Source: Glycomyces luteolus (lineage in GTDB: Bacteria > Actinomycetota > Actinomycetes > Mycobacteriales > Micromonosporaceae). From it: DNA of 64,000 nt. Both the position numbers and the translations under genes were made by a program. Position 1 is the first letter of the stretch; every line of letters begins with the position of its first letter. The notes beneath the pieces were generated by a model. The model worked only from the letters and a program-made list of their open reading frames with translations, had not been told where the DNA came from and did no database searches. Of the stretch, positions 9,168-52,451 are shown one piece after another. The stretch spans positions 192,627-256,626 of the forward strand of contig NZ_JAPZVP010000003.1 of assembly GCF_027622875.1 (NCBI RefSeq). Reading direction: 5' to 3'.

Positions 9168-9170
9168 GGT

Positions 9171-11360: not shown

Positions 11361-13751
11361 GTGCGACGACGCACATTCGCCGCTTCCCTCGGCGCCGCCG
11401 CCGTGGCCGCCACCGCCGTGCCCGGCATCGCGGCCGCCAAGACCTCCGGCCGCTGCGAGGACGCCTACACCTGGCGCAATGCCGTGGTCAACGGCGGCGG
11501 CTACGTCCCCGGCATCGTCTTCAACGAGACCGAGGCCGACCTCGCTTACGCCCGCACCGACATCGGCGGCCTCTACCGCTGGCAGGAGGCCACCCAGGCC
11601 TGGCTACCGCTCCTCGACTGGGTCGGCTTCGACAACTGGGGCTGGACCGGCGTCGTCTCCGTCGCCACCGACCCCGTCGAGACCGACCGCGTCTACGCCG
11701 CGGTCGGGACCTACACCAACGACTGGGACCCCAACCCCGGCGCGGTCCTCTACTCCGACGACCGCGGCGCCACGTGGGGCGTCGCCGAGCTCCCCTTCAA
11801 GCAGGGCGGCAACATGCCGGGCCGCGGCATGGGCGAACGCCTCGCCGTCGACCCGGCCGACAACGCCGTCGTCTACCTGGGCGCCCCCAACGGCAACGGC
11901 CTGTGGCGCTCCACCGACCACGGCCGCACCTGGGCGAAGGTCGAGGCGTTCCCGAACGCGGGCGACTTCGTGCAGGACCCCGGCAGCGACTACTCCGACG
12001 ACAACCAGGGCGTCATCTGGATCGAGTTCGACCAGGCCGACGGCCGCATCTTCGTCGGCGTCGCCGACCCGGACGACCCGCTCTACGTCTCCGAGGACCG
12101 GGGCCAGACCTGGCAGCCCGTCCCCGGCGCCGCCGCGATCGGCTCCGTGGACGGCAACCGGACCATCCCCAAGCAGGCCGCGATCGACCACGCCAACGGC
12201 CACCTCTTCATCGTCACCAGCTGGGATCCCGGACCCTACAACGGCGCCCCGGCCTCCGGCAAGGGCGGCGCGATCTGGCGCCTCGACCTCGCCACGGGCG
12301 GCTGGGCCGACGTGACCCCGACCTACAGCCCGGTCGGCAAGACCCCCGGCTTCGGCGGGATCACCGTCGACCGCCAGCGCCCCGGCACCCTCATGGCCGC
12401 CACGCAGAACAACTGGTATCCGGACGAGATCATCTACCGCTCCAGGGATTCGGGCGCGACCTGGGAGACCAGCTGGGACTACGCGTTCGACGCGAACTGG
12501 TCGTGGCCGCCCGAGCGGGTCGACCGGTTCAAAATGGACGCTTCGGGCAGCGAGTGGCTGTCGTTCGGCGCCGCCGACGACGGCCCGGCGTACGCGGTCA
12601 AGCACGGCTGGATGATCGACGCGCTGGCGATCGACCCGCACAACTCGGACCGGATCATGTGGGGCACGGGCGCCACGATCTGGGGCACGGAGCAGCTGAC
12701 GGCCTGGGACGCGCAGGGCCCGCTCGTGGGCTGGGACGCCGAGGCCGGGCACCAGGTGGCGCTGCCGGTGGAGCAGTTCACCGTGGCGGTGCGCGCGGAC
12801 GGCGTGGAAGAGACTGCGGTGCAGGACATCGCGGCGCTCGGCGGCACGCTGGTGTCGGCGACCGGGGACCTCGGCGGGTTCGTGCAGGACGACTTGGGGC
12901 GCGCGGGCGAGCAGATCCGCCACCCGGACTGGTCGTCGGGGCGGAGCGTGGACTTCGCGGCGCTGAACCCGGACATCGTGGTCGGCTCCGGTGACGTGCA
13001 CGGCGACGTCGACGGGCACGTGGGCGTCTCGACGGACCGCGGCGCGACCTGGCTGACGACGAAGCGCCTCGAAGGCGTTGCGGGAGGGGCGAACGGCGGC
13101 ACGGTCGCGGTGAGCGCGGACGGCGCGGTGATCGTGTGGACGCCGGGCGACGGGACGACCGCGCCGGTGTCCAGTTCCGATCTCGGCCAGACGTGGACGA
13201 CGGTGGACGGGCTGCCCGCGGGCGCGAAGGTGCGCGCCGACCGTGTCGACCCGAACCGCTTGTACGCCTATGCTTCCGGGAAGTTCTACGCGAGCGGGAA
13301 CGGCGGGCTGAGCTTCGCCGAGACCGGCGCGTCGGGCCTGCCGCCGACCGGCGACGTGGATTTCCGGGCGGCGCCGGGCAAGCGCGGGCACCTGTGGCTG
13401 GCCGGGGGCAACGACCCCGACGTGGTCGACCCGCTGTACGGGATGTGGCGTTCGAAGGACGGCGGTGCGACCTGGTCGCGGATCCGGGACTTCGAAGAGG
13501 CCGACGCGGTCGGGTTCGGCAAGGGACGCGGGCGGCGCGGCTATCCGGCGATCTTCACGTCGGCGAAGGCGGGCGGCCAGCGCGGCATCTGGCGTTCCAC
13601 CGATGAAGGGCTGAGCTGGCAGCGCGTGAATGACGATGCGCACCAATGGGCTTGGACCGGGAAGTCCATCACGGGCGACCCGGAGGTGTACGGCCGCGTC
13701 TACATCGCGACGAACGGTCGCGGCTTGATCTACGGCGACATCGCGGACTGA
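11361..13751 (+). CDS. Secreted GH74 xyloglucanase
   Basis: This 796-aa glycoside hydrolase family 74 enzyme cuts xyloglucan. A twin-arginine-like signal (MRRRTFAASLGAAAVAATAV, cleavage near AAA-KT) precedes tandem beta-propeller blades with the sialidase/BNR-type repeat S.D.G.TW. The two catalytic aspartates expected for GH74 are visible: Asp67 in RTDIGGLYRW and Asp503 in ATGDLGGFVQ. There is no carbohydrate-binding module. The GTG start at 11361 follows AGGAG; a longer open frame upstream is only antisense to the GH3 gene. A strong hairpin terminator follows. Confidence 0.93.
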   Translation: MRRRTFAASLGAAAVAATAVPGIAAAKTSGRCEDAYTWRNAVVNGGGYVPGIVFNETEADLAYARTDIGGLYRWQEATQAWLPLLDWVGFDNWGWTGVVSVATDPVETDRVYAAVGTYTNDWDPNPGAVLYSDDRGATWGVAELPFKQGGNMPGRGMGERLAVDPADNAVVYLGAPNGNGLWRSTDHGRTWAKVEAFPNAGDFVQDPGSDYSDDNQGVIWIEFDQADGRIFVGVADPDDPLYVSEDRGQTWQPVPGAAAIGSVDGNRTIPKQAAIDHANGHLFIVTSWDPGPYNGAPASGKGGAIWRLDLATGGWADVTPTYSPVGKTPGFGGITVDRQRPGTLMAATQNNWYPDEIIYRSRDSGATWETSWDYAFDANWSWPPERVDRFKMDASGSEWLSFGAADDGPAYAVKHGWMIDALAIDPHNSDRIMWGTGATIWGTEQLTAWDAQGPLVGWDAEAGHQVALPVEQFTVAVRADGVEETAVQDIAALGGTLVSATGDLGGFVQDDLGRAGEQIRHPDWSSGRSVDFAALNPDIVVGSGDVHGDVDGHVGVSTDRGATWLTTKRLEGVAGGANGGTVAVSADGAVIVWTPGDGTTAPVSSSDLGQTWTTVDGLPAGAKVRADRVDPNRLYAYASGKFYASGNGGLSFAETGASGLPPTGDVDFRAAPGKRGHLWLAGGNDPDVVDPLYGMWRSKDGGATWSRIRDFEEADAVGFGKGRGRRGYPAIFTSAKAGGQRGIWRSTDEGLSWQRVNDDAHQWAWTGKSITGDPEVYGRVYIATNGRGLIYGDIAD

Positions 13752-13794
13752 CGGCCGCCTGACGGCGGCCCTTGAGACGCTCTGGGGAGCGACT

Positions 13795-13840
13795 GCGCCG
13801 GTCGCGGGACCAACCGTTCGGTCCCGCGGCCGGCGCTTTG
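13795..13840 (+). terminator. Rho-independent-type terminator after GH74
   Basis: A 17-bp stem (13795-13811 pairing with 13820-13836, one G-U pair) with an 8-base loop is followed by TTTG. A smaller GGCCGCC/GGCGGCC hairpin sits at 13753-13770 directly on the stop codon. Confidence 0.7.
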
Positions 13841-13972
13841 TCATGCGCGGGCACGCTTCCACGGAGAATGCGGTTGGCTGGCATGAACTGTCGGTAATGC
13901 CCAGTACGAACGCCTGATCGGCACCGGTAAGGTGATCGCATGAATCGCCTTGTATAGGAAGGACCACCCCTG

Positions 13973-14662
13973 GTGCCCGACGTGCCCTCCACTCGTCTGG
14001 TCTACGACGCCCTCCTGATCACCTCGCTCGACGATGCCTACAAGCCCGCCACCGGTCCTCGTGTGACGGGGCTCGGCATCGGCGCGGCGCTGCTGGCGGA
14101 GCTGGTGCTGTCGCAGCATCTGACCGTCTGGGCCGCAAAGGGAGTCGATCGGGTGTGCATCGACCCTATGGGAGGCACGGGCGAGGGGTACCGGCCGCCG
14201 GACGACTCCCTGGCGCTGTGGCTGGTCGAGCACGTCCGCGCCGAGCACGCCAGCCTCCCGGTGCGCGACTGGCTCGACTTCCTCTCCGCCTCCGACGTCT
14301 ACACGAAGACCGCCGAGCACATGGCCATGCTCGGCTTCATGGTCCGCCGCGAGTACCGCTCGCGGTGGCGCCAGCGGGTGGAGGTCGGCTACGAGCCGAG
14401 CGACCCGCTCATCGCGAACGCCGTGTTCTCGCGGCTGCGCCGCCATCTGTCCCTTTCGGAGGGATCGATCTCGGTGGAGGACGCCTTCCTGCTGGCGCTC
14501 ACCGAGGCGGTCGGCCTCTCCAAGCCGCTCTACCACCAGTTGCCTTCCGGCGCACGCGTGTACGCCGGAAAGCGCAGGCAGGCGCTGCCCGCCGCGCTGC
14601 GCGCCGTCCTGGCGCACCTGGCCGCTTCGGTGGCGGACATCGCCATCACCGGCGGCCGCTGA
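13973..14662 (+). CDS. GPP34 (GOLPH3/VPS74-like) family protein
   Basis: This 229-aa actinobacterial member of the GOLPH3/VPS74 phosphoprotein family is mainly helical, with ALLAELVLSQHLTV near residue 40 and DALLITSLDD at the start. The eukaryotic relatives bind PI4P; bacterial members are of unproven role and are common in streptomycetes. No signal peptide is seen. The start GTG 13973 has AGGAAGGA upstream. It is followed after 34 nt by an amino-acid permease gene with its own ribosome site, so the two may be co-transcribed. Confidence 0.85.
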   Translation: MPDVPSTRLVYDALLITSLDDAYKPATGPRVTGLGIGAALLAELVLSQHLTVWAAKGVDRVCIDPMGGTGEGYRPPDDSLALWLVEHVRAEHASLPVRDWLDFLSASDVYTKTAEHMAMLGFMVRREYRSRWRQRVEVGYEPSDPLIANAVFSRLRRHLSLSEGSISVEDAFLLALTEAVGLSKPLYHQLPSGARVYAGKRRQALPAALRAVLAHLAASVADIAITGGR

Positions 14663-14696: not shown

Positions 14697-16190
14697 ATGC
14701 CCACTCCGTCCTCGCCGCCGAGCGCGGTGCAGGCCGTCCTGGCCCGCGACAAACTCGGCACCTTCAGCCTCCTCCACTTCTCCCTCACCGCCGCGACGCC
14801 GTTGACGGTGATCGCGGGCGGCGTCGTCGTCATGTTCGCCCTCGCCGGGCAGATCGGCATCCCCCTGGGGTACCTCATCGTCGCCGCCTGCCTGTGGCTC
14901 TTCAGCGTCGGCTACACCACGATGTCGCGGCACATCACGAACGCAGGCGCGTTCTACGCGTTCGTCGCACGCGGCATCGGCCGCATTCCCGGGGTCGCGG
15001 CCGCGTGGGTCGCGGCGACCGCCTACTGCGCCATGCAGATCAGCCTCTACGGCCTGCTCGGGCTCACGGCGGAGAGCGTGCTGGCCCGCATAGGCCTGGA
15101 CGCGCCGTGGTGGGCCTGCGCGCTCGTCGCGTGGCTCCTCATCGGACTCCTGGGCACGCGCGCGGTCGACATCAACGCGAAGGTGCTGGCGATCCTCCTG
15201 GCCGTGGAGATCGCCGTTATCCTGCTGTTCAGCGTCTCGAACTTCGCCAACGCCGCCGACGGCGTCCCGCTCGCGGCGATGTCGCCGTCCACGCTCGGCG
15301 GCGAGGCGGCCGGGGCGATGCTGGCGCTGGCGGTCACCGGCTTCATCGGCTTCGAGTCGCCCACCGTCTACGGCGAGGAGGCGAAGGACCGGCGCCGCAC
15401 GGTCGCGCGGGCCACCCTCGCCACCGTCGGCATTCTCGCGTTCATCTACATCGCCTCGTCGTGGTCGATCATCGCCGCCGTCGGCGCGGACGACGTCGTG
15501 GACGCCGCGATCGCGGACCCGTCGCTCATGTTCACCCTTGCCGGTGACCAGCTCGGCGCCCCGTGGGCGATCATCGGCGAGGTGCTGCTGCTGACCTCGG
15601 TCACCGCCGCCGCCTTGAGCTTCCACAACACGACCGCGCGCTACCTGTTCGCGCTCGGCCGCGAGCGCGTCGCGCCCGCCTGGCTGGGACGCACCTCACC
15701 GCGGACCTCATCCCCCGCGGCCGCCTCGCTCACGCAGACCGTCGTCAGCGGCGTGGTGATCATCGCCTGGGCGGTCCTGGGCCTCGACCCGCTCGTGCAC
15801 CTGTTCTTCTACATGAGCACCTCGGCGGGGATCGGCCTGCTCGCCCTGATCGCCACGTGCGCCATCGCGGTCGTCGTGTACTTCGCGCGCGACCGGCGCG
15901 GCGAATCCCTGTGGGCCACCAGGATCGCGCCAGTGCTCGCGGTCGTCGCGCTCCTGTGGGTGCTGTACCTGTCGGTCCTGCACTTCCACACCTTGCTGGG
16001 TGTCGAGAAGGGATCGACGCTGCCGGTGCTCGTCCCGATCCTGTTCGCGGGCTTGGCGGTCCTCGGCGCGGCCTGGGGCGCGTACCTGAAACGGGGCCGC
16101 CCGGAGGTGTACGCCGGGATCGGCCACGGCGCGAAGGCCGCGCTCGTGACCGAGGCGTCCGAACCGGTGGGGGTGGCCGGTGGCCGCTAG
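14697..16190 (+). CDS. APC family amino acid permease
   Basis: This 497-aa integral membrane transporter of the amino acid-polyamine-organocation superfamily has about 12 hydrophobic helices. They begin with FSLTAATPLTVIAGGVVVMF, where the TPLTVIAGG break is the substrate/cation-binding helix 1. GYTTMSRHITNAGAFYAFVA and FIGFESPTVYGEEAKDRRRT are typical of the family. The substrate cannot be deduced. It starts behind GAAGAAGGAG. Its end overlaps the GNAT gene by 11 nt, so the two are translationally coupled. Confidence 0.9.
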   Translation: MPTPSSPPSAVQAVLARDKLGTFSLLHFSLTAATPLTVIAGGVVVMFALAGQIGIPLGYLIVAACLWLFSVGYTTMSRHITNAGAFYAFVARGIGRIPGVAAAWVAATAYCAMQISLYGLLGLTAESVLARIGLDAPWWACALVAWLLIGLLGTRAVDINAKVLAILLAVEIAVILLFSVSNFANAADGVPLAAMSPSTLGGEAAGAMLALAVTGFIGFESPTVYGEEAKDRRRTVARATLATVGILAFIYIASSWSIIAAVGADDVVDAAIADPSLMFTLAGDQLGAPWAIIGEVLLLTSVTAAALSFHNTTARYLFALGRERVAPAWLGRTSPRTSSPAAASLTQTVVSGVVIIAWAVLGLDPLVHLFFYMSTSAGIGLLALIATCAIAVVVYFARDRRGESLWATRIAPVLAVVALLWVLYLSVLHFHTLLGVEKGSTLPVLVPILFAGLAVLGAAWGAYLKRGRPEVYAGIGHGAKAALVTEASEPVGVAGGR

Positions 16191-16746
16191 GACCGTGCAC
16201 GTCGCGGGCCTGCTCGCCGAGGCCTTCGTGGAAGTGCCGACCGCGGTCTGGCTCGTCGGGGACCCGGCCGAACGCCTTGCGGCCGTGCAGGGCCAGTTCG
16301 AGATCCTGGTGGAGCACGCGCTCGCCCACGGCGGCGTCGTCACCTCCGGGACCGAAGGCGCGGTCGTCTGGTTCGACCGCACGAAGGACGAGGCGCCGAT
16401 CCCCGGATACGAAGAGCGCCTGCGCGAGGCCTGCGGGAAGCACTACGAAGGGTTCGCGGAGCTCGACCGGATCATGGACGAGCACCATCCCGCCGAGCCG
16501 CACAACTACGTGGCGCTCGTGGGCGTCCGCGCAGACGCGCGCGGGCGCGGCATCGCGAGCGACATGCTCCGCCGCCACCACGAGCGGCTCGACGCGACCG
16601 GCACCCCCGCGTACCTGGAGGCGGTCTCGCTGCAGACCGCGAACCTGTATGCGTCCCTGGGCTACCGGTCGCACGGCGAACCGTTCCGGATCGGCGAGGG
16701 CGGGCCGCCGCTCTACCCGATGTGGCGGCCCACGCCCATCGGATGA
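16180..16746 (+). CDS. GNAT family N-acetyltransferase
   Basis: This 188-aa acetyltransferase carries the acetyl-CoA-binding motif ALVGVRADARGRGIASDMLR (residues about 110-130) and the C-terminal YLEAVSLQTANLYASLGYR motif B. It overlaps the permease gene by 11 nt with a GTG start, so it may act on a compound imported or exported by that permease (inference). The acceptor is unknown. Confidence 0.88.
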   Translation: MAARTVHVAGLLAEAFVEVPTAVWLVGDPAERLAAVQGQFEILVEHALAHGGVVTSGTEGAVVWFDRTKDEAPIPGYEERLREACGKHYEGFAELDRIMDEHHPAEPHNYVALVGVRADARGRGIASDMLRRHHERLDATGTPAYLEAVSLQTANLYASLGYRSHGEPFRIGEGGPPLYPMWRPTPIG

Positions 16747-41339: not shown

Positions 41340-44300
41340 TCAGGGCCTGGCGATCTGGACGAGGTCGGGGTTCTGGCCTCGGCGGGCGAGGAGGGCCCTT
41401 CCCTGCGGGAGCTGGCGGCTGGCGGTGCCGTTGATGAGGCGGCCTTCGAGGCGGTCGCCGGAGAAGAGGAGGCCGGGGCTGGACATGTCGCAGAGCTGGC
41501 GCAGCAGCGGTTCGTAGACGGCGCGGCTGGCGCCGCCGGTGCGGCGGGCGAGGATGAGGTGAAGGCCGAGGTCGGCGCCGTGGGGGGCGAGTTCGGTCAA
41601 GGGCGCCAAGGGGTTGCCGGCGGTGGTGACGACGAGGTCGTAGTCGTCGACGACGACGAAGACCTCGGGGCCGGTCCACCAGTCGCGGTCGCGCAGCTGC
41701 TGGGGCGTGACGTCGGGGCCGGGCAGGCGCTTCTTGAGGGCCTCGGCGAGCTCGGCGGCGTTCTGGGCGGCGTGGGCGGCGGTGTTGCAGTAGGTGATGA
41801 GGTGGTCCTCGGGGACCTCCTCGAGGTGCGAGCGGCGGTAGTCGACGAGGAAGATCCCCGCTTCGGTGCCGGGCCGCCGCACGATCTGCCGCATGATGCC
41901 GCGCAGGAGCGTGGTCTTGCCGGTCTGGGTGTCGCCGAAGACGACCAGGTGGGGGTCGGTCTTGAAGTCGATCACTGCCGGGGCGAGATCGCTTTCGGCG
42001 ACGCCGACGACGGGCGCGAGCGCGTACGGGTCGCCGGTGGGGGACGCGGCGGGCGGGACGAGTTCGTGCAGCGCCACGTCGACCGGGAGTGCTTTGACGG
42101 CGGCGACGCCGGGTCCGGGCCAGCGGCGCCGGACTTCGTCGGCGAGGTCGGCGAAGGCCTCGGCGAGGTCCTCAATGGAGTCTCGGTCGTCGATGCGAGG
42201 CAGGGCGATGTGCCCGAAGCGCTTGTCGGAGGTGAGGACTCGGCCGGGCACTTCCTTGGGGAGTTCCTCGATGAGTTTGCGGTCGATGCCGGAGTCGAAG
42301 GCGTCGGCGAGGCGCAGTTCGATGCGGCCGGAGAACGAGGCCGCGAGGCGGGCGCGCACCTGCGTGGAGTTCACGGCGGTGAGCACGACGTGCACGCCGA
42401 GCGCGGGGCCGCGGGAGGCGATCTCCGTGAGCAGGTCGTTCGCGTCTTCGTTGGCCTCGGTGAGGCCGCCCCAGCCGTCGATCACGAGCACGAGGTCGCC
42501 CGGGACGTCGACGGCGCCTTCGGCTGCGGCGCGGCGCAGACCGGCGGCCGAGTCGATGGCCTTGCCGCGCATCAGGGTTTCACGGGAGTCGAGGAGCGAG
42601 CGGACTTCGGCGAGGGTGCGGGCGACGAGTTCGGGTTCGGCCCGTCCGGCGGCGACGGCGACGTGCGGGAGCGCGGCGAGCCCGCCGAGCGCGCCGCCGC
42701 CGTAGTCGATGACGTAGGCGGCCAGCGCGTTCGGCGGGTAGCGCAGGGCGAGGCCCGAGACGAGGGTGCGCAGGAGCGTGGACTTGCCGGAGCCGGGGGC
42801 GCCGAGCACGACGAGGTTGGCGTCGGCTCCCGAGAGGTCCCATTCGAGCGGGCCCTGGCGCTGCTCGCGGGGGTGGTCGAGGAGGCCGAGCACGGCCTTG
42901 ACGGTGCCGTCGAGCGCGGCCGCGTCGGGGCTGATCGCGTTGAGCGGCAATGCTTCGGGGAGGGGCGGGAGCCAGACGGGGCGGACGCGGTCGACGCCTT
43001 CGGTGTTCGTCGCGTCGGCGAGGGAGGCGACGAGGACGCGCAGCACGCTGTGCTCGGCGTCCGGCAGCTCCGCCGCACCGCGTGCGGTGCCCGCCAGGGC
43101 TTCGACGGTGTGGACGATCGGCGGGACCGGCCACGGCAGCACCGGCAGTGTCTGCTCGGCCTCCTCGCGCGGCGGCGTGTACTTGCCGGAGACCATGGCG
43201 GCCTTGAATCTCGTGAAGATCGTGGTGTCCACTTTGAGGTATCCGGAGCCGGGTTCGGGCGGCAGCCGGTAGGCGTCGGGCACGCCGATGGCCTCGCGGC
43301 TCTCGGCCTCGGAGAAGGTGCGCAGGCCGATCCGGTACGACAGGTGGGATTCGAGTCCGCGCAGGTGCGCCGATTCGAGGCGCTGCGTGGCGAGCAGGAG
43401 GTGCACGCCGATGGAGCGTCCGATCCGGCCGACCGCGACGAACAGGTCCGAGAAGTCGGGTTTGGCGGTGAGCAGCTCGGAGAACTCGTCGATGATGACG
43501 AGCAGGTGCGGCAGCGGCTCAAGCTCCGGGTGCTGCTGGCGCTGTTTGGCGTAGGCGTGGACGTTGGGGAGGTTCCCGGCGTCCTTGAGGAGCTGCTGGC
43601 GGCGGCTCATCTCGCCGTAGAGCGCTTCGGCGAAGCGGTCGACGAGCCCGAGGTCGTCGGCGAGGTTGGTGATCGCACCGGCGCTGTGCGGGAGGGCGTC
43701 GCAGTCGGCGAATGTGGCGCCGCCCTTGAAGTCCACGGTGAGCAGTGCGAGTCGCTCGGGCGGGTGGCGCACGGCGAGCGCGGCGACGAGGGTGCGGAGG
43801 GCCTCGGATTTGCCGGAGCCGGTGGCGCCGACGATGAGGCCGTGCGGGCCCATGCCGCCGAGCGCGGATTCCTTGAGGTCGAGTTCGACGGGGCGGCCGT
43901 CGGCGTCGACGGCGAACGGGACGCGCAGCAGCGCGGATTCCTCGCGAGGGGCCCAGGTGCGTTTCCAGTCCACTTCGGCCGGGTCGTCGACGCCGAGGAT
44001 GTCGGCGAGGCCGTGCACGCCGGAGAGGGCGCGGGAGACGTCGTCGAGGGCGAGCCGCCAGGGGCTGAGGGCTCGCGCGATGGCGGCGAGGTCGGCGGGG
44101 TCGAGGCGGTCGGGCGTGCCGGTGGCGGTGGTTTCGGCGATGCTGCCTTCGGTGCGTTCGATGCGGGTGACCGCGACGGTAGCTTCGTCCGCTTTGATGC
44201 GTGCGGCGGTGTGCTCGGGTTCTTGGCGCTGTTCGGCGACGAGGGTCCAGAGGTGCACGCCGAGCAGTTGCGGCGCTTCGAAGTCGTTCATCAAGCCCGG

Positions 44301-45296
44301 CAGGGACACTTGGTGCTCGCCGTCGACGATGACGAGCAGGCGGCGCGAGCCGGGGCCGGGCGGGCCGCCGCGCCTGCGGCGCAGTTCGGCGGCCCGGACG
44401 GCGAGGTCCTCGGCGAGGATCTCGGTGAGTTCGATGGTGGTGGGGCAGATGAGCGGGACGGGGGCCTCGCTGTCCGAGGGGTCGGCGAGGAGGTGCGGCA
44501 GCCATGAGAGCTTCGTCCACTCGGGAGCGACGGAGGGGTGGGCGACGATCGCCACGCGGAGGTCCTCGGGGGCGACCAGGACCGCGAGTTGGGCGAGCAT
44601 CGCCTGGGCGGCGGCCCGCGTGTGCGCGTAGTCGCCGACGATCGCGGTGTCGCCGATCTCGGCGAGGTCGAGGGTGAGCGGCTGGTCGGCGAGGCGCGCG
44701 TATTGGTCCACCAGTTCCTCGGCGCCCGACTGGCATACCGGGTCGTAGACGGTGAGCGGGCTCTGCTCGTCGAGTTTCAGCGACAGGGACCGGCTGAGCG
44801 GCACCGCCGCGAGTCCGCATCGGACGGTCAGCAGGTCGGTGTCGGTGGCCCGCCGCTCCCACCGGCGGCCCGGGTCGCACGCGAGGCCGAGCAGCAGTCC
44901 GGGGTGCGGGTGGCGGCGGGCCGCGTGGTCGCGCTGGGCCTTCACCGCTTCGCGGATGGTGTGCCGGGCGTCCTCGAGGTAGTCGAGGTAGCGTTCGCGC
45001 TCCTGCCGGAGCTTCCGCCTGGGGCCCGAGCGCATCGCGGCGAACAGCACGATGCCCATGGCGACGCTGGCGACGAGCATGAGCAGGCCCGCCGTGGCGT
45101 ACAGCGGCCGCTGGAGGTTCGACAGGACCATGATCATCGCGCCCGATCCGGACATGAGCGGCATCATGAGCATCGGCGCGCCCATCGCGGCCGATGGCGG
45201 ATCGCCCAGGGCCGGAGGCGAAGCGAGCGTGATCGGCTCGGTCGAGACCTCGGTGGCGGGGCGGCGCGCGGGGCGGCGGACGACGTCGGTGCCCAT
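41340..45296 (-). CDS. eccC: Type VII secretion ATPase EccC (fused EccCa-EccCb)
   Basis: This 1318-aa motor of an ESX-type secretion system has two N-terminal membrane helices (residues about 40-90) followed by three FtsK/SpoIIIE domains. Walker A motifs are VGATGSGKSE (near residue 489), LGAPGSGKST (near 830) and FGDTQTGKTT (near 1119). Walker B motifs are LLVIIDEFSEL, LVLVIDGWGGL and VFVVVDDYDLV. Only domain 1 keeps the acidic pair DE; domains 2 and 3 have DG and DD. It starts 1 nt after the eccD stop. It lies last in the operon. Confidence 0.95.
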   Translation of the reverse strand: MGTDVVRRPARRPATEVSTEPITLASPPALGDPPSAAMGAPMLMMPLMSGSGAMIMVLSNLQRPLYATAGLLMLVASVAMGIVLFAAMRSGPRRKLRQERERYLDYLEDARHTIREAVKAQRDHAARRHPHPGLLLGLACDPGRRWERRATDTDLLTVRCGLAAVPLSRSLSLKLDEQSPLTVYDPVCQSGAEELVDQYARLADQPLTLDLAEIGDTAIVGDYAHTRAAAQAMLAQLAVLVAPEDLRVAIVAHPSVAPEWTKLSWLPHLLADPSDSEAPVPLICPTTIELTEILAEDLAVRAAELRRRRGGPPGPGSRRLLVIVDGEHQVSLPGLMNDFEAPQLLGVHLWTLVAEQRQEPEHTAARIKADEATVAVTRIERTEGSIAETTATGTPDRLDPADLAAIARALSPWRLALDDVSRALSGVHGLADILGVDDPAEVDWKRTWAPREESALLRVPFAVDADGRPVELDLKESALGGMGPHGLIVGATGSGKSEALRTLVAALAVRHPPERLALLTVDFKGGATFADCDALPHSAGAITNLADDLGLVDRFAEALYGEMSRRQQLLKDAGNLPNVHAYAKQRQQHPELEPLPHLLVIIDEFSELLTAKPDFSDLFVAVGRIGRSIGVHLLLATQRLESAHLRGLESHLSYRIGLRTFSEAESREAIGVPDAYRLPPEPGSGYLKVDTTIFTRFKAAMVSGKYTPPREEAEQTLPVLPWPVPPIVHTVEALAGTARGAAELPDAEHSVLRVLVASLADATNTEGVDRVRPVWLPPLPEALPLNAISPDAAALDGTVKAVLGLLDHPREQRQGPLEWDLSGADANLVVLGAPGSGKSTLLRTLVSGLALRYPPNALAAYVIDYGGGALGGLAALPHVAVAAGRAEPELVARTLAEVRSLLDSRETLMRGKAIDSAAGLRRAAAEGAVDVPGDLVLVIDGWGGLTEANEDANDLLTEIASRGPALGVHVVLTAVNSTQVRARLAASFSGRIELRLADAFDSGIDRKLIEELPKEVPGRVLTSDKRFGHIALPRIDDRDSIEDLAEAFADLADEVRRRWPGPGVAAVKALPVDVALHELVPPAASPTGDPYALAPVVGVAESDLAPAVIDFKTDPHLVVFGDTQTGKTTLLRGIMRQIVRRPGTEAGIFLVDYRRSHLEEVPEDHLITYCNTAAHAAQNAAELAEALKKRLPGPDVTPQQLRDRDWWTGPEVFVVVDDYDLVVTTAGNPLAPLTELAPHGADLGLHLILARRTGGASRAVYEPLLRQLCDMSSPGLLFSGDRLEGRLINGTASRQLPQGRALLARRGQNPDLVQIARP

Positions 45297-45297
45297 G

Positions 45298-46629
45298 TCA
45301 GATCCCGGCGACCATCGCGTAGAGGCCCGCGAGGTGCCCGGCCAGGACGATCATGCACGCCACCAGGATCGTCTCCGCGACGGCCACGACCCGCCGCCAC
45401 CAGGCGGCCGAGACCGCCGAACGGGACACCGAGGCCACGGACACGTACGCGAGCCCGGCCAGGACCGCCAGCGCCGGGAGCCAGGCCAGGAGGGGTTCGG
45501 ACTGGTCGATCCATTGCCATGCGGCCCACGCGAGTGCGGTCATGCCGGTGAGGCGGAGTGGGGCGACGTGGCGGACGAGGTCGAAGATCCGGGAGCGGGT
45601 GAGGAGTGCGAGTGCGGCGCCGGTGCCCATGAGGGCGGCCCAGGTGTCGGGCTTGGCGGCGAGGAGGGTGGCGGCTGCGGCGGTGGTGGCGGCGAGGCCG
45701 CAGATGGCGCCGGTGAGGCGGGCGTCGGTGGCTTCGAGGCGGCGTGCGAGGTGCAGGTCGGTGGTGGGTTCGCCGGCGCGGACGTCGCGGTCGAGGGTGA
45801 AGAGTCCGGCGGAGGCCATGGCGAGGCGGGGTATGAGGGCGATCGCGAAGAGTCCGATGAGGATGGTGAGGCTTTGGGCTCGGGTGGGGCTGAGTCCGGT
45901 GTGGGCCCAGAGTGCCCATGCGAGGGCGGTGAGGGCGAGTGCGCTGGCGGTGCCGACGGCGTAGGCGGTGGCGAGGCGGGCTCCGGCGCGGGCGGCGACG
46001 ATGAGGGCGAGTGCGGCGATGCCCGCGCCGATGAGTTGGGTGGCGGGGTGGGCGGTGCCGTCGGGGGCGAGGACGTCGACGGCGCTGTAGCCGGCGCGTC
46101 CGGCCCAGAGGGCGCCGCCGGTGAGGGCGAGGTGGGTCATGAGGTCGTGCTGGCGGGCGGACCACCAGGACATGAGGACGGCGAGGAGGCTGATGAGGCC
46201 GCCGGTGAGGAGGATGGCTTGGTCGGTGCCGGGGCTGAATGCGGCGGCGGCGATGAGGAGTCCGGCGGTGGCGACGGCGAGGAGGCGGCCGGTGGCGGGG
46301 TCCCAGCGGGCGCCGCTGGCGTCGACGGCGTCTTCGACGGCGTCGCGGACGTCTTCGACGGTGTCGGGGAGGGCGGCGGCGGTGGCGTCGTGGAGGAGGA
46401 GTACGCCGCCGTCGGGGACGGCTCGTGCGGCGAGGGTTTCGGCGGGTGTGAAGGTGGTGCCGTCGATGGTGGACAGTGCCCAGCCGGTGCCGTCTTCGTC
46501 GGGTTCCTCGGGTCCGGTGTGCCGCAGGAGTTGCGGGAGGAGTTCGGCGATGGGGAGGTCGTCGGGGAGCGCGAGGTCGCGGGTGGCGCGGGGGCCGACG
46601 ACGGTGACGGTGCTGTATCGACCGGGCAA
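45298..46629 (-). CDS. eccD: Type VII secretion membrane protein EccD
   Basis: In this 443-aa protein, residues 1-85 form the ubiquitin-like cytosolic domain (YSTVTVVGPRATRDLALPDD, LPIAELLPQLLRHTG), followed by about 11 membrane helices ending ILVACMIVLAGHLAGLYAMV. This matches EccD, the membrane pore-lining component of ESX systems. I placed the start at TTG 46629 because AAAAGG lies upstream and the domain begins there; the longer frame is shadow of the preceding gene. Confidence 0.9.
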   Translation of the reverse strand: MPGRYSTVTVVGPRATRDLALPDDLPIAELLPQLLRHTGPEEPDEDGTGWALSTIDGTTFTPAETLAARAVPDGGVLLLHDATAAALPDTVEDVRDAVEDAVDASGARWDPATGRLLAVATAGLLIAAAAFSPGTDQAILLTGGLISLLAVLMSWWSARQHDLMTHLALTGGALWAGRAGYSAVDVLAPDGTAHPATQLIGAGIAALALIVAARAGARLATAYAVGTASALALTALAWALWAHTGLSPTRAQSLTILIGLFAIALIPRLAMASAGLFTLDRDVRAGEPTTDLHLARRLEATDARLTGAICGLAATTAAAATLLAAKPDTWAALMGTGAALALLTRSRIFDLVRHVAPLRLTGMTALAWAAWQWIDQSEPLLAWLPALAVLAGLAYVSVASVSRSAVSAAWWRRVVAVAETILVACMIVLAGHLAGLYAMVAGI

Positions 46630-46661
46630 GGCAAGCCTTTTCGGGAGGTTCAGGTGCGGAT

Positions 46662-47012
46662 TCAGGGGGTGTGGACTTGCACGGCGGCGGGGGGCGTGCT
46701 GAGGGCGTTGCGTTCGGCTTCTTCTTCGGCTTCGCGCTGTTGCTGTTTCTCGAAGGCGTTGGCGACGGCGAAGGCGGCGACGACGAGGGCGACTGCGATG
46801 GCGCCGATGAGGGCGGCGGGCCATAGGGGTTGGCGCTGGCGCCAGCTCCGCGCGGAGCCGTAGAGGACGGCGGCGCGGAGCTGGCGTCGGCGCAGGGCGG
46901 CGGCCTGGAGCACGTAGCGCTCGCTTTGGCCGGTGCGCCGCATGGCCATCGGGGCGAGGTCGGTGCCGGGTTCGGCGGGTCTCGCCGGGGCCTGGGGTGC
47001 CTCCGAGGTCAC
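46662..47012 (-). CDS. Small single-helix membrane protein in ESX operon
   Basis: This 116-aa protein has an N-terminal cytosolic segment rich in Arg (YVLQAAALRRRQLRAAVLYG), one membrane helix (WPAALIGAIAVALVVAAFAV) and a charged tail (FEKQQQREAEEEAERNALST). The layout resembles only the N terminus and helix of EccB, whose large periplasmic domain is absent. Its GTG start overlaps the stop of the Esx gene as GTGA, so translation is coupled. I know of no named family. Confidence 0.6.
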   Translation of the reverse strand: MTSEAPQAPARPAEPGTDLAPMAMRRTGQSERYVLQAAALRRRQLRAAVLYGSARSWRQRQPLWPAALIGAIAVALVVAAFAVANAFEKQQQREAEEEAERNALSTPPAAVQVHTP

Positions 47013-47311
47013 CCGCCCCACCGGGAGTTGATGCGGGTCATGGTGCCGGACCAGTTGGTCGCGGAGTCGTCGGTGGCCGAGGCGAGCTTGTTGAAGGCCG
47101 CCTGGATCTCCGTGAACTCGGCTTCGGAGGTGGTGTTGAAGGTGCCGAAGCCGTCGGTGCCGGCGCCGACCCATTGGCCTTGGACGGTGCTGACGTGGCT
47201 TTTGATCTCGCCGAGGATGGCTTCGAAGCGGCCGCGGTAGGTGTGCTGGACGCCGGCGAGGTCTTGGAGGTTGCCGACGTTGCCGTAGAGCTCGAATCCT
47301 GAACCAGGCAT
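47009..47311 (-). CDS. WXG100 family protein (EsxA-like)
   Basis: This 100-aa two-helix protein has the hairpin motif Trp-Val-Gly in VQGQWVGAGTDGF and begins MPGSGFELYGNVGNLQD. There is no C-terminal YxxxD/E secretion signal; it ends TRINSRWGG. It is the second of two tandem Esx genes and is likely exported as a complex with its neighbour at 47327. Confidence 0.88.
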   Translation of the reverse strand: MPGSGFELYGNVGNLQDLAGVQHTYRGRFEAILGEIKSHVSTVQGQWVGAGTDGFGTFNTTSEAEFTEIQAAFNKLASATDDSATNWSGTMTRINSRWGG

Positions 47312-47326
47312 AGTGGAGTGTCCCTT

Positions 47327-47677
47327 CTAGATCTGGATCGTGATCGGCTTGATGCCGGGCAGGTTGCCTTCGGCGCCGGTGTAGCCGCCGACGTTCATGT
47401 CGTCCGTGCCGAAGCCGTCGTTGCTGGTCTCGCCCTGCGCGAGGGCGCTGATGCCGTACTTCTCGGCCATGTTGTTGTAGGACTCGACGAACGCGGCCTT
47501 GGCACGCTGGAAGGCGGCGAGCGCCTCGCCCTGCTGGGCGTCGACGTCGGCCTCCATCTCGTTGATGAGGGCCTGCAGGTCGCCGGTGAGGCTCTCGACG
47601 GAGATGCCGTGGTTGTTGGCGCTGGTGGTGAGTGCGTTGGCTACGGAGAGCCCGAATTCCGTTCCGATTCCGGCCAT
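47327..47677 (-). CDS. WXG100-like protein (EsxB-like) without the WxG motif
   Basis: In this 116-aa helical protein of WXG100 size and layout the turn reads DVDAQQGEALAAFQRA, so Gln replaces the expected Trp. The tail holds GGYTGAEGNLPG, a YxxxE secretion signal of the ESX type. It starts behind AGGAGG. It is the first gene of the eccCD operon. The pair therefore splits the two hallmark motifs between partners. Confidence 0.75.
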   Translation of the reverse strand: MAGIGTEFGLSVANALTTSANNHGISVESLTGDLQALINEMEADVDAQQGEALAAFQRAKAAFVESYNNMAEKYGISALAQGETSNDGFGTDDMNVGGYTGAEGNLPGIKPITIQI

Positions 47678-47931
47678 GTGGGGTGCCTCCTAGGGAGCTG
47701 TGGATGGCCCGTGCGGGGGGAGCGTATCGGTTCATGTTGACACGGCGGTGAAGTGAAAGTAAAGGGCCGCGTCCACCACTCTGGACTGCTTCGGCATCAT
47801 CGCACCACTTGATCAACTTGCTTCACTTCCGTTGGGGCGCAACGGAGACAGTTCACCTGATGTTATTCCAATCCTCATTGATTCTCGGTACGCTGACCCC
47901 AGCCAAGAGTCCGCACCCCCCTGGAGGACCA

Positions 47932-48264
47932 ATGGACCGCATCGGCATGAACCCCGGCCAGGCCAACTTCAAAGGCGGCCAGACCATCGCCTCGGCGGAG
48001 TCGTTCGGCTCGCTGGAGGGCGAGCTGCGGAGCATCGTCGACAAATGCACGACCGCCGCCGGGGAGACCGAGGTCATGACCGGCTACGACGAGTTCGGCG
48101 CGACCTGGGCCACCGACCTCGCGAAGACCGCCGAGCACGGCGCGAGCGTCGGCACCACCACCCACCTCACCGTCGGCGACGGCGTCGGCACCGACGCCGC
48201 GAACGCGGGGCTGCAAGGCGTGGAGGCGCCGAAGCCCAGCGCCCCCGGCATCAACCTGGTCTGA
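47932..48264 (+). CDS. Small Esx-like/EspC-like protein, 110 aa
   Basis: It starts at ATG 47932 behind GGAGGA. A helical segment FGSLEGELRSIVDKCTTAAG is followed by YDEFGATWATDLAKTAEHGA, then a Gly/Thr-rich tail. The size, the YDEF.ATW. pattern and the position next to the ESX operon suggest a small secretion-associated or chaperone-like protein. No formal family was certain. It is followed 21 nt later by the large protein, probably one operon. Confidence 0.6.
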   Translation: MDRIGMNPGQANFKGGQTIASAESFGSLEGELRSIVDKCTTAAGETEVMTGYDEFGATWATDLAKTAEHGASVGTTTHLTVGDGVGTDAANAGLQGVEAPKPSAPGINLV

Positions 48265-48285
48265 TCCGCTCGAAGGAGAACCCCC

Positions 48286-50826
48286 ATGCCGAGCATTCCC
48301 ACCGCGGCCAGTCTCAGCGTCCCCGAGTCCAAAGCGGACGTCGGGACGCTGCGCGAGGGCGCCACCGAGTTCGAGTCCAAGTCCGGAGCCATCATCGGCC
48401 GCGGCAGCGAGGTCGTGGCCCAGATGAAGTCCACCGCCGTCGAGTTCACCGAGCTCGTCTCCGAGCAGCTGAAGTCCCGCGGCACCGAGTCGATCGAGGC
48501 CGCCCGCACCGCCATGCAGGGCTCGGTGTGGGGCGGCGCCGTCACCGGGAAGTGGGCCGACGCCGCCGAGACGTACCAGCAGATCGCCGCCAGCCACACG
48601 GCATCGTGGAACGAAGCGGTGCGCAGCGGCTTCGGCGTCACCGCCGAGTCGGCCGGGGTCACCGCCGGCATGCCGGGCGACGTCGCGTCCAAGATCATGG
48701 ACAACAAGATGGCCGAGGCGGGCGCCGAACAGCTCGCCGCCATGCAGGGCGCCGTCAACGCCGCGTACGAGAAGTACAAGGACGAGGCGAAGCTCGCCGG
48801 GACCCGCCTCCAGCAGGGCCCGACCCCCGCGAACCTCAGAGCCCTCTCCGGCGGCGGCACCACCACCTGGGCCCTGTTCAACGCCTTCGGGCTCAAAGCG
48901 GGCATCCCGCCGCTCGACGGCGCCGACGGCAAGCGGCTCGCCGAGGCCCTGATCGGCTTCCTCGCCGGCGATGACGACGCCATCCCTCCCGCGCTGCGCA
49001 CGCAGATCGACAACCTCCTCGCCATCGCCCGGCACGCGCAGGGCATCCAGGACGCCGGAAAGCAGCTCGACCCCGGCCAGCTCGACTTCCTCCAGCAGCT
49101 GTTCAAGGGCCTGGACATCCCCGCGAACGACAACAACCCGAACGGCGGGACCGTGTTCGAAGCGCTCCCGCACTGGCTCAAGGCGCGCGACGTGTCCGGC
49201 GCCGACCAGACCCTCATCCTGGGCGCGTTCGGCGGCGGGCTGCTGGCGATGACGAACGAGAAGATCGGCGGCGGATTCGGCCGGCTCCCCGAGAGCCTCC
49301 GGGACACTCTCGGGTACTACTCCGGGAAGGTCGACAACTTCAACGTCCACACCCTCCACGACCAGCTCATCGCGCTCGCCCCTTACCTCGGAGCGACCAC
49401 CGCCAAGCAGATCGGCCTCGGAAGACTCGAGGGCGGCAAGGAGTTCTCGGCGGCGCTCACCTTCGCGGTCGCCGACTTCTACTCCGAAGTCACGCGTCGG
49501 CGACCGGCCTACGAGGTGCCCTTCACCGACCTCGAGGAGTTCGCCCCGCACCTGCTGGAGGCGAGCACCCGCAACACCGACGTCAACCACGAACTCCTCA
49601 CCGGCAAGATCCAGCACCCCGACATCGGCAAGCACACCCCGGAATACCTGGTGCGCGCCCTGTTCGGCAACACCTGGGACAAGGACGCCGGCAAGGCCGC
49701 CGCCGGCCTCATCGACTGGATCGGCACCGACGCCGGCTCGAACGACCCGGCCACCAAGGACCGCGCCACCGAAGCCGCCTACGCGCTCTTCACCACGATG
49801 ACCGACCGCGACAACACCTCCGGGCTCTTCGACAAGTCCGCCTACGACTTCTTCACCGACTCCTACGGCAAGATCGGCAGCTTCGAGAACGCCCCCATCG
49901 GAGCCGCGAACGGCGCGATCACCTACTCCATGGCCAAGGCCGCAGTGCCGTACCTCGACTACTTCGCCGAGACCGACACCGGCGGCAAGGACCAGCTGTT
50001 CATGTCGAAGGACCCCAAGGCCGCGGACATGTACCTCTCCCAGCAGACCCGCGAGGACTTCGTCGAGCTCATCATGGGCGGCGACGCTTCCCGCGACAAG
50101 TTCGGCGCGGAGGTCTACCGCAACGTCCTCCTCGACGCCCACTACGCCGACAGCTGGAAGGACACCGAGGAGGCCAACGACGAGGCCATGCGCACCGGCC
50201 GGCTCATGGGCCTGCTCGACACCGGCTTCCAGCGCGTCTTCGACGACGCCAACGTGGACGCCAACGCGAAGACCTCCGAGTCGACGCAGCACGCGAGCTG
50301 GGCGCGCGCCGGCGCCGCCGCCGTCAAGGAGGTCGTCACCGAACTGCCGTTCGTCCGAGGCCTCGGCCGCGGCGCGCAGCAGATCATCCGGCAGGTCGCC
50401 GAGAGCTTCAAGTGGACGCCCGGCGTCGTCCAGTCGTACGACCTCGTCTGGGAGAAGGGCGTCGCCCCTAAAGCCGAGGACTTCGACCGCAAGGGCGACC
50501 CGAGCTACGAGCAGTTCAACTTCGCGGTGACCCACACCGTGATCGAACAGCAGCTCAAGGACACCGACTCGGGCATCACGATCGAGGACATCCGCCAGGC
50601 CGACTCCCGCCTCGTCGAGCAGGACGCGAACGGCAAGTGGCAGCTGCGCCCCGCCGACGAGCTGATGAAGATCCACGAGCCCTCAGGCAAGGCCGAAGAC
50701 AAGGGCATGTACACCTACAGCGACGCCGAGCGGGAGCTCCACCGCCTGCTCGAGCAGAAGCTCAAGGACAAAGTCGACAAGTTCAACAACTCCTTCAACC
50801 TCCAGCGCAAGGACACCGGCGGATAG
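48286..50826 (+). CDS. Putative type VII-secreted 846-aa protein
   Basis: Residues 1-150 are long helices of Esx/PPE-like character with SVWGGAVTGKWADAAETYQQ. The middle (residues 200-620) is a helix-rich, TPR-like body (EFAPHLLEASTRNTDVNHEL, ALFGNTWDKDAGKAAAGLID). Near the C terminus YTYSDAEREL holds a YxxxE signal. It has no Sec signal or membrane helix. Similar large proteins accompany ESX loci in other actinomycetes, with the activity unknown. No toxin motif was recognised. It begins behind GAAGGAG. Confidence 0.7.
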   Translation: MPSIPTAASLSVPESKADVGTLREGATEFESKSGAIIGRGSEVVAQMKSTAVEFTELVSEQLKSRGTESIEAARTAMQGSVWGGAVTGKWADAAETYQQIAASHTASWNEAVRSGFGVTAESAGVTAGMPGDVASKIMDNKMAEAGAEQLAAMQGAVNAAYEKYKDEAKLAGTRLQQGPTPANLRALSGGGTTTWALFNAFGLKAGIPPLDGADGKRLAEALIGFLAGDDDAIPPALRTQIDNLLAIARHAQGIQDAGKQLDPGQLDFLQQLFKGLDIPANDNNPNGGTVFEALPHWLKARDVSGADQTLILGAFGGGLLAMTNEKIGGGFGRLPESLRDTLGYYSGKVDNFNVHTLHDQLIALAPYLGATTAKQIGLGRLEGGKEFSAALTFAVADFYSEVTRRRPAYEVPFTDLEEFAPHLLEASTRNTDVNHELLTGKIQHPDIGKHTPEYLVRALFGNTWDKDAGKAAAGLIDWIGTDAGSNDPATKDRATEAAYALFTTMTDRDNTSGLFDKSAYDFFTDSYGKIGSFENAPIGAANGAITYSMAKAAVPYLDYFAETDTGGKDQLFMSKDPKAADMYLSQQTREDFVELIMGGDASRDKFGAEVYRNVLLDAHYADSWKDTEEANDEAMRTGRLMGLLDTGFQRVFDDANVDANAKTSESTQHASWARAGAAAVKEVVTELPFVRGLGRGAQQIIRQVAESFKWTPGVVQSYDLVWEKGVAPKAEDFDRKGDPSYEQFNFAVTHTVIEQQLKDTDSGITIEDIRQADSRLVEQDANGKWQLRPADELMKIHEPSGKAEDKGMYTYSDAERELHRLLEQKLKDKVDKFNNSFNLQRKDTGG

Positions 50827-50869
50827 CGCGCCCCGCCACCGCCCGCCCACCGACGAGGAACCCTCCACT

Positions 50870-51592
50870 GTGACCCGAATCGACCCGCCCCCGGCGGCGA
50901 GCCGCAAACCCGACGGGCGCGACCTGCCCGACCGCCTCCAGAACGGCCTCGAAGGGCTCCGCGACCGCGTCGGCGCCAACAAGGCCGTCGCCGCGACCGC
51001 CGCCGTCGTGGCCGTGGTCCTCCTCGTCGCGATCGTCGCGGCCGTCATCGCTTCGAACGGCGGCGACGGGGACGGGGCCGCGCCGCCCGCAGACGAGGCG
51101 ACCTCCTCCCCCGCGGCGGCAGGCGAACCCGCGCCGACCCTCCCGGCCGACGGCGCGTACCTGGCGCGCCAGGAGGCCACGGGCCTCTGCGTCACGAACG
51201 GGCCCGAACCGGGCAACCCCGAGCGCAGCGTCATGGTCCTCGGCGACTGCGCCGCAACGTATCCCGCGAGCCTCGCCTTCACCTCCGAGGGCGGCGGCGC
51301 GTACACCGTCGGCCTCGACTTCACCGAGGACGACTGGCAGGCCTGCTGGGGCGCCGACGAACCGGCCGACCAGGCGGGCTACCTCTCCGCCGGGCAGGAC
51401 TGCGCCGACTCGGACCTGCAGCGGTTCCAGCTCACCGGAGTCGGCGCCGACTCCTACACGATCGCGGTCGTCGCCTCCGGACTCTGCATGGGGCTCCTGG
51501 AGGACGCGGCCGCCGAAGCGGGCGCGGCCCTCGCCACGGCACCGTGCGACCCGGACGACCCGAAGCAGCGGTTCGCGCTGCTGGTCCCCTGA
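50870..51592 (+). CDS. Membrane-anchored ricin-like lectin-domain protein
   Basis: This 240-aa protein has a cytosolic N terminus of about 40 residues, one membrane helix (VAATAAVVAVVLLVAIVAAV) and an outside Ala/Pro linker. A beta-trefoil-like domain follows, with six cysteines and repeats GLCVTNGPEPGNPERSVMVL, CWGADEPADQAGYL and KQRFALL (the QxW/F lectin motif). The GTG start is at 50870. It is a paralog of the next gene. Confidence 0.7.
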   Translation: MTRIDPPPAASRKPDGRDLPDRLQNGLEGLRDRVGANKAVAATAAVVAVVLLVAIVAAVIASNGGDGDGAAPPADEATSSPAAAGEPAPTLPADGAYLARQEATGLCVTNGPEPGNPERSVMVLGDCAATYPASLAFTSEGGGAYTVGLDFTEDDWQACWGADEPADQAGYLSAGQDCADSDLQRFQLTGVGADSYTIAVVASGLCMGLLEDAAAEAGAALATAPCDPDDPKQRFALLVP

Positions 51593-51623
51593 CCCGAACC
51601 GCCCCTCCATAAAGGAACCCCTG

Positions 51624-52451
51624 GTGGCACAACGAGACCCGCACCTCCCCCGGCACTCGGCCGGGACGGACCTGCCCGCGAAGCTGCGCGAGATCTGGGA
51701 CAAGTCCCGGATGCGCCTGGGCACCGGGCAGGCCATGGCCGGCGTCGCGGCGGGCGTCGCGCTCGTCCTGACGATCGCGGTCGTCGCCGCTGTGATGACC
51801 GCGGGCGGCGGCAAAGGCGACCCGGAGCCCGCCGCGGCCAACGAACCCGCCGCGACCTCGCCGGCCGCGACCGCGACGCCCGCCGCGTCGCCCAGCCCTA
51901 GTCCGAGCCCCTCCGGGTCGCCGACCGCCTCGGCGTCCGAAGAGGACGAACCGGAGCAGCCGCAGGACACCGCGGAGGAGCCGACGGAGGCCGCCCCACC
52001 CGCGCCCGCGTACCCCGATGACGGCTGGTACCAGGTGAAGCAGGAGGCCAGCGGCCTGTGCCTGAGCACCGGCCCCGAGCCGGGCAACGAGGGCCGCACC
52101 GTCGTCGTGCTCGCCGCCTGCGGCTCGGCGAACCCGTCCTCGATCCAGGTCGTGGCGTGGGACGAGGGCGTGTACGTGTTCAACCTGCACTTCCCGGACT
52201 GGAGCGCCTGCATGGGCGCCGACGCCCCCGCCGACCAGGAGGGCTACCTCATGGCCGCCTACGGCTGCGAGTTCACCGAGACCCAGTTCTGGGAGCTCGA
52301 ACCGCAGGGCAGCGGGGTCTACACGATCGCCACCAGCGCCTCCGGGATGTGCGTGGGCATCCTCGGCAGCCGCTCCGCGACCGCCGGGGAGCCGACCGCG
52401 ACCGACACCTGCGACGCCGGCGACGCGACCCAGCGGTTCACCCTGTCCTGA
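51624..52451 (+). CDS. Membrane-anchored ricin-like lectin-domain protein (paralog)
   Basis: This 275-aa protein has the same layout as its neighbour: N-terminal cytosolic part, one helix (MAGVAAGVALVLTIAVVAAV), a longer Ser/Pro/Glu linker (about residues 70-130) and the lectin-like domain (GLCLSTGPEPGNEGRTVVVL, CMGADAPADQEGYLM, TQRFTLS). The conserved GPEPGN and ADxPADQxGYL blocks show recent tandem duplication. It starts at GTG 51624 behind AAAGGAA and is probably the last gene of the cluster. Confidence 0.7.
   Translation: MAQRDPHLPRHSAGTDLPAKLREIWDKSRMRLGTGQAMAGVAAGVALVLTIAVVAAVMTAGGGKGDPEPAAANEPAATSPAATATPAASPSPSPSPSGSPTASASEEDEPEQPQDTAEEPTEAAPPAPAYPDDGWYQVKQEASGLCLSTGPEPGNEGRTVVVLAACGSANPSSIQVVAWDEGVYVFNLHFPDWSACMGADAPADQEGYLMAAYGCEFTETQFWELEPQGSGVYTIATSASGMCVGILGSRSATAGEPTATDTCDAGDATQRFTLS

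Follow-up and report, generated by a model that had tools for sequence, protein, structure and literature searches.

Gene content of the compact locus

The window analysed here is a 64-kb stretch of the Glycomyces luteolus genome (C23:192627-256626; genome of 5.74 Mb in 49 contigs, listed as 100% complete). It contains a compact type VII secretion locus, in which an EccC ATPase and the membrane protein EccD are encoded together with a one-helix protein that looks like a truncated EccB and is called mini-EccB below. Five tightly packed genes form a minus-strand operon in the order esxB, esxA, mini-EccB, eccD and eccC; the GTG start of the mini-EccB gene overlaps the esxA stop codon (GTGA), and eccC begins directly after the stop of eccD. 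Four divergent genes, p110, p846, lecA and lecB, lie on the plus strand. An earlier sequence-only reading had placed all of these genes, and their operon and divergent arrangement, correctly. The features are as follows.

41340..45296, minus strand: eccC, an FtsK/SpoIIIE ATPase of 1318 amino acids (aa) with three Walker A motifs at 490, 832 and 1121
45298..46629, minus strand: eccD, 443 aa, a ubiquitin-like (YukD) domain and a transmembrane domain
46662..47012, minus strand: mini-EccB gene, 116 aa, a cytosolic helix and one transmembrane (TM) helix, without an extracytoplasmic domain
47009..47311, minus strand: esxA, a WXG100 protein of 100 aa (PF06013, 30.1 bits, above the Pfam cut-off)
47327..47677, minus strand: esxB, 116 aa, an Esx-type partner by position and alignment, with a conserved tail
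47678..47931, between the two operons: divergent intergenic region, set by the coordinates of the flanking genes
47932..48264, plus strand: p110, an EsxB-like protein of 110 aa, with a purine-rich stretch upstream
48286..50826, plus strand: p846, an all-helical presumed substrate of 846 aa (PF23275, 41.6 bits, above cut-off)
50870..51592, plus strand: lecA, 240 aa, one N-terminal TM helix (by hydropathy) and a ricin-type beta-trefoil-like domain
51624..52451, plus strand: lecB, 275 aa, one N-terminal TM helix (by hydropathy) and a ricin-type lectin domain

Family models supported most of these assignments. EccC scored above cut-off with TIGR03924 (751 bits) and TIGR03925 (699 bits), and below cut-off (510 bits against 778) with TIGR03928, the EssC-type model of the type VIIb secretion system. 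EccD exceeded the cut-offs of TIGR03920 (108 bits), PF19053 and PF08817; its TTG start was picked by comparing relatives. EsxA gave 30.3 bits with the NCBIfam model TIGR03930, below that model's cut-off of 44.85. No family was above cut-off for EsxB or p110 in the family-model search, and one of the 13 members of the EsxB alignment matches WXG100. LecB matched both PF14200 and PF00652 above cut-off. The match of LecA to PF14200 (E 9.4e-5) was just under the cut-off, and the lecA gene recurs at the loci of relatives. The ratio of non-synonymous to synonymous differences (pN/pS) was 0.18-0.43 in eccC, eccD and the mini-EccB gene (four strain pairs). Because the gene set recurs in relatives and pN/pS is in this range, the locus is more than a chance arrangement; it is real and conserved.

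Modest resemblance of the one-helix protein to the EccB N-terminus

The sequence-only reading described a plain one-helix protein and overlooked its likeness to EccB. Several weak but agreeing signs suggest that it is derived from EccB, cut down to the N-terminal cytosolic helix and the TM helix. A profile of 13 mini-EccB sequences was co-linear with the EccB N-terminus over the helix, the linker and the TM segment (hhalign, 63 columns, E 5e-4), and a larger profile of 36 sequences aligned over 57 columns with an E of 8.2e-6. When all columns were shuffled, the mean score was 9.5 and none of 60 shuffles reached the real score of 30.3. When only the cytosolic columns were shuffled, the mean was 24.3 (standard deviation 1.5, maximum 30.7) and one of 100 shuffles reached the real score. 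Since the mean stayed this high, the TM segment supplies most of the EccB profile score and the cytosolic helix a modest share.

Forward searches with EccB models pointed in the same direction. Among nine genomes, PF05108 (EccB) gave three sub-threshold matches, two of which were mini-EccB genes, one covering model positions 10-71 at 16.3 bits and the other 17-71 at 16.5 bits. A model of the EccB N-terminus was run against 3318 open reading frames (ORFs), and its best match outside EccB was a mini-EccB; when the full EccB model was run over the mini-EccB loci, mini-EccBs ranked first among the sub-threshold matches. Across 396 phylum genomes, the mini-EccB search also picked up the N-terminal end of a true EccB, in G627 (24.5 bits). 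The open frames stop after the TM segment in all 23 aligned mini-EccBs, some of which carry a longer Pro/Ser-rich tail, and our full-length EccB model found no full-length EccB in the other mini-EccB loci searched.

A further short EccB frame was observed in genome G048. At positions 8919-9458 of locus L034 (G048:C1:289700-309600), an EccB frame ends right after the TM segment (85.8 bits, model positions 1-63), and the six frames of the retrieved 20 kb held no further EccB stretch. This stub adjoins EccC and EccD of another lineage, its EccC lying outside the mini-EccB clade described below. G048 is a separate case and a possible second, independent stub EccB.

Canonical ESX parts elsewhere in the genome

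The absence of EccB, EccE and mycosin, as noted in the sequence-only reading, holds for full genes at the locus; the N-terminal part of EccB is apparently present as mini-EccB. No full EccB or mycosin ORF was found in the 64-kb window with our own models of the two proteins. A genome-wide search located the full parts on other contigs, none of them in operon context beside the window. The only PF05108 match of the genome is at C16:55957, and the only EccE (PF11203) match above cut-off is at C16:78392. Several mycosin-like proteases are encoded, with the best at C49:215633, C16:76293 and C16:71614; none exceeds the strict cut-off of the model. Some ESX-4 systems lack EccE.

C16 carries a complete canonical ESX, because EccC and EccD adjoin EccB there and an Esx-sized gene pair lies about 12 kb beyond that EccC. 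The compact and the canonical EccC are only about 40% identical. The mycosin-like protease on C49 (L020 6508-7707) is an orphan with an N-terminal hydrophobic stretch; it is kept in 22 of 22 genomes of the genus, and no ESX genes were seen around it in the retrieved stretch of the host genome.

Distribution of the locus and phylogeny of EccC

We defined a close EccC relative as a near full-length match with at least 50% identity, a definition that left out a 258-residue piece at 64% in G031. Among the matches listed for 61 related genomes, such relatives occurred in 12 genomes including this one: 9/22 in the genus, 2/15 in the rest of the family and 1/24 in the remainder of the order, where the one genome has two copies. 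At the 13 loci of these genomes (the window counted), the one-helix gene was present in all 13, p846 in 12 and lectin-like genes in 10.

The mini-EccB profile extended this range. Within the order it matched 14 of 397 genomes, and in the phylum 21 of 396, namely this one, 6 strong matches, G627 and 13 weak matches (E 1e-4 to 1e-3). Locus counts from the phylum scan cover the six strong genomes; the 13 weak ones were excluded, and the weak match in G627 is the real EccB mentioned above. A search of named genomes gave 33 mini-EccB loci, including Glycomyces, Stackebrandtia, Actinorhabdospora, Phytomonospora and Fodinicola, with Allosalinactinospora, Nocardiopsis, Actinomadura, Mumia and others among the further genera. 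Relatives of p846 were found in 18 of the 33. Together with the 12 of 13 loci above, this bears out the expectation that the divergent genes co-occur with eccC and eccD in relatives.

We found eccC and/or eccD near mini-EccB in 54 of 56 locus records (13/13, 12/12, 23/25 among the named loci L113-L137, and 6/6 phylum genomes); both misses are short pieces, of 12 kb and 3.3 kb. These records leave out L105-L112, which repeat L021-L028, and count L114, L116 and L136 twice, as repeats of L029, L080 and L083. For two loci mini-EccB sits on a neighbouring stretch, L031 in the case of L032 and L071 in the case of L072.

A tree of 63 EccCs (FastTree, rooted on L145) placed the 38 mini-EccB-linked EccCs in exactly one clade with a support of 0.999, and none of the 24 comparators fell inside it. 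The compact EccC clade stands among EccB-linked EccCs. Judged from this tree, the mini-EccB-linked EccCs have one origin. EccB lies within 10 kb in 22 of the 24 comparators; of the other two, L034 has the short EccB frame described above, and L152 has EccB on another contig only. L037, where neither EccB nor mini-EccB was found, was assigned to neither group; it lies outside the clade, as its neighbour. Left out of the tree were L146 (824 aa, for its length), L134, the repeat genomes (L077, L078, L105-L112, L114, L116, L136) and the loci with EccC broken, cut or off the stretch (L073, L080, L082, L083, L115, L118, L119, L123, L124, L128, L131, L137).

Two other arrangements were seen. L037 (G027), L038 (G022) and L039 (G035) are EccC-EccD clusters in whose retrieved stretches our models detected neither EccB nor mini-EccB. 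In two Nocardiopsaceae (L118 10282-12477 and L123 10263-12539), a kinase-domain protein with one predicted TM segment is encoded directly after mini-EccB, which recalls the kinases of T7SSc and T7SSd, two other described classes of type VII secretion system (T7SS).

Genomes with mini-EccB in which EccB and EccE were not found

Three genomes of genus g19, in another family, carry EccC and a mini-EccB of 69-80 aa (G039, G054 and G120; 99-100% complete, the first two single contigs). Neither EccB nor EccE was found in these genomes. EccD adjoins EccC in G039 and G054; in G120, eccC is about 9 kb from mini-EccB, and no EccD was seen in the retrieved stretch. The best mycosin scores were 51, 89 and 184 bits, respectively; none reached the cut-off, and the 184-bit match lies in a 1388-aa frame. 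The mycosins of the host genome itself also score below cut-off, so the absence of mycosin from the three genomes is weaker than that of EccB and EccE. G166 of the same genus (88% complete) gave only a 31-residue sub-threshold match to EccB.

Other genes were noted at mini-EccB loci. Downstream of eccD, the EccB-less genus has genes resembling those for HSP70 and dynamin (L033 8909-12779 and L071 7858-11610; the family match was for L033 only). L033 also holds tandem 414-aa ORFs with the same start and end residues (13405-14649 and 15133-16377), either a real duplication or an assembly effect. In G040, two mycosin-like proteases of 248 bits each lie near mini-EccB (L032 3703-6985).

Presumed cargo

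The family profiles of p110 and EsxB aligned over 103 columns (E 3.1e-5, probability 73), and p110 is presumed to be an EsxB-like partner of p846. In both families an Asp close to the C-terminus is invariant, and the proteins often end in I-N or K-P-I-N/T (KPI[NT] in EsxB). An AlphaFold2 model of p846 (18 sequences, mean pLDDT, the predicted local distance difference test score, 77) is helical throughout apart from a few short strands, with long N-terminal helices followed by a helical-repeat-like body; PF23275 matches 16 of the 18 alignment members. The sequence-only reading pointed to a YxxxE tail on p846. This tail is not a conserved signal: 3 of 11 p846 relatives have YxxxD/E within their last 40 aa, where chance predicts 0.096 per 40-mer, and there is none in EsxA or p110.

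The host and G. lechevalierae differ sharply in this pair. Identity is 92% for EccC, 94% for EsxA, 89% for EsxB and 86 and 82% for the lectin-like proteins, and only 36% for p846 and 52% for p110 (L021 6453-9405 versus window 47932-50826). The proportion of synonymous differences (pS) is 0.37 and 0.43 in this pair versus 0.09-0.26 in eccC, eccD, mini-EccB and the esx genes. Because p110 and p846 have diverged with raised pS while the flanking genes are about 82-94% identical, the pair has likely been exchanged between strains.

A probable reduced machine and its alternatives

We read the locus as a reduced variant of the type VIIa secretion system (T7SSa), with an inner-membrane core of EccC, EccD and an EccB stub, and put the probability of this at roughly 0.6. 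The reduced machine is probably self-sufficient. The sequence-only reading had left the choice between a reduced machine and a module that borrows parts; near-complete genomes of a related genus tip the balance towards the former, since EccC and mini-EccB occur there and searches for EccB and EccE came up empty.

The model draws on ESX-5, in which residues 10-48 of EccB5 lie along the membrane and link adjacent EccD barrels, the TM helices form a basket around the EccC helices, and the periplasmic part of EccB5 forms with MycP5 a chamber that is part of the proposed conduit (PMC8131196). In the compact machine, EccD barrels would form a membrane raft, and the cytosolic helix of mini-EccB would couple neighbouring barrels like the EccB5 segment. 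Its TM helix would supply the basket around the EccC helices, as in ESX-5. EccC would hydrolyse ATP and move the EsxA/EsxB and p110/p846 pairs across the membrane. The locus encodes no periplasmic EccB chamber, mycosin or EccE, all of which would probably be unneeded. Because mini-EccB keeps the EccD-coupling and TM segments, without the MycP-binding part, the result would be a membrane-level pore without a chamber. We infer from sequence both secretion by the compact machine and its cargo, as well as mini-EccB taking the place of EccB.

Several results weigh against this reading. In reconstituted ESX-5, deleting any one of EccB, EccC, EccD, EccE and MycP abolishes secretion (PMC10597459). The related-genus systems are distant, with EccCs 38-45% identical. 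Mycosins lie near mini-EccB in G040 and Fodinicola, and S8 proteases at some Nocardiopsis loci score about 100-106 bits with the mycosin model; the mini-EccB family is therefore not uniformly mycosin-free. All 12 compact-locus genomes also carry at least one full EccB. Finally, the similarity to EccB is modest and comes mostly from the TM segment (24.3 of 30.3 with the cytosolic columns shuffled). In the reverse search, with a model built from the first 13 mini-EccBs, the best real EccB ranked below an unrelated ORF, at 8.1 bits (E 0.37), and the mini-EccB profile matched no EccB chain in the PDB. The third sub-threshold PF05108 match was not a mini-EccB, and most mini-EccBs went unmatched by PF05108.

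The full EccBs bear on the first alternative, that the canonical ESX of C16 lends its EccB, EccE and mycosin to the compact EccC, EccD and Esx proteins, with the orphan mycosin of C49 as another possible contributor. The genome offers exactly one EccB, one EccE match above cut-off and several mycosin-like proteases, full EccB is kept in all 12 compact-locus genomes, and the orphan mycosin is conserved throughout the genus. However, the orphan occurs in all 22 genomes and the compact locus in nine (among the matches listed), so that it is not tied to the locus. The low identity between the compact and the canonical EccC also argues against sharing, a dedicated EccB-like stub would be redundant, and there is nothing to borrow in those relatives that have EccC and mini-EccB and yielded neither EccB nor EccE. 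We therefore regard borrowing as somewhat unlikely, and as still conceivable in Glycomyces.

The modest, mostly TM-derived similarity and the poor reverse search would also fit a small membrane subunit of separate origin, unrelated to EccB and comparable, by description, to TsdH/TseK of T7SSd/T7SSe; T7SSd is described with a single-TM subunit that has a short cytoplasmic part (PMC11217815). The co-linear match over helix, linker and TM segment, the sub-threshold Pfam EccB matches of two relatives and the ranking in the forward searches speak against this origin, which we consider unlikely. That the locus is a decaying, non-working remnant of a once complete ESX would fit the missing canonical parts and the patchy presence in 9 of 22 genus genomes (among the matches listed), and is very improbable given the pN/pS values of eccC, eccD and mini-EccB, the intact Walker A motifs and the similar gene set in other genera.

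Building on the reduced EccC-EccD-mini-EccB machine, a broader scenario is possible, and we put it forward tentatively. One ancestral event in Actinomycetes may have cut EccB to a membrane anchor, giving a self-sufficient, chamber-less EccC, EccD and mini-EccB machine without EccE or mycosin. In this machine a D...[KR]PI[NT] tail would have replaced YxxxD/E as the export signal, and the anchored outer partners would be lineage-specific, lectin-like in Glycomyces relatives and a kinase in Nocardiopsaceae.

Relationship to known systems and significance

The compact locus shares with the T7SSa/ESX systems (mycobacterial ESX-3 and ESX-5; actinomycete ESX-4-like systems) EccC and EccD by curated models, a WXG100 protein and the tree position of EccC. 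It differs from them in having EccB apparently cut to a helix and a TM segment, in lacking EccE and mycosin at the locus, in the absence of YxxxD/E from EsxA and p110, and in its p110/p846 and lectin-like partners. Garrett et al. (2024) describe T7SSc to T7SSj, and among the systems as set out there only T7SSd is actinobacterial (PMC11217815). T7SSd resembles the compact locus in its few core parts, its small single-TM subunit and its occurrence in Actinomycetota (PMC11217815). In the same description, however, its ATPase has FHA domains and groups nearer EssC, and the system includes the kinase TsdD and the large TsdI, without a ubiquitin-like part (PMC11217815), whereas the compact locus has a T7SSa-type EccC and an EccD with a YukD domain.

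Clusters without EccB have been noticed before. In Micromonospora lupini, an eccC-eccD-mycP cluster is listed without eccB (PMC4182475). It is alike in this respect and differs in including mycP; the passages on it mention no mini-EccB (PMC4182475). For Streptomyces scabies, a protease encoded at a distance from the cluster was noted as one that could serve as EccB (PMC8401907). No description of a stub EccB was found in the literature searched, which was mainly open-access.

If the tentative ancestral scenario is true, the EccB/MycP chamber would be an add-on outside the translocation core. A T7SSa clade in which just the EccD- and EccC-contacting segment of EccB survives would mark out the minimal core for translocation. 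Structural studies could then turn to a far smaller complex, and harmless soil bacteria would allow a direct test of what the chamber does. With similar loci in other actinomycetes, natural variation may already have put to the test which components the machine can do without.

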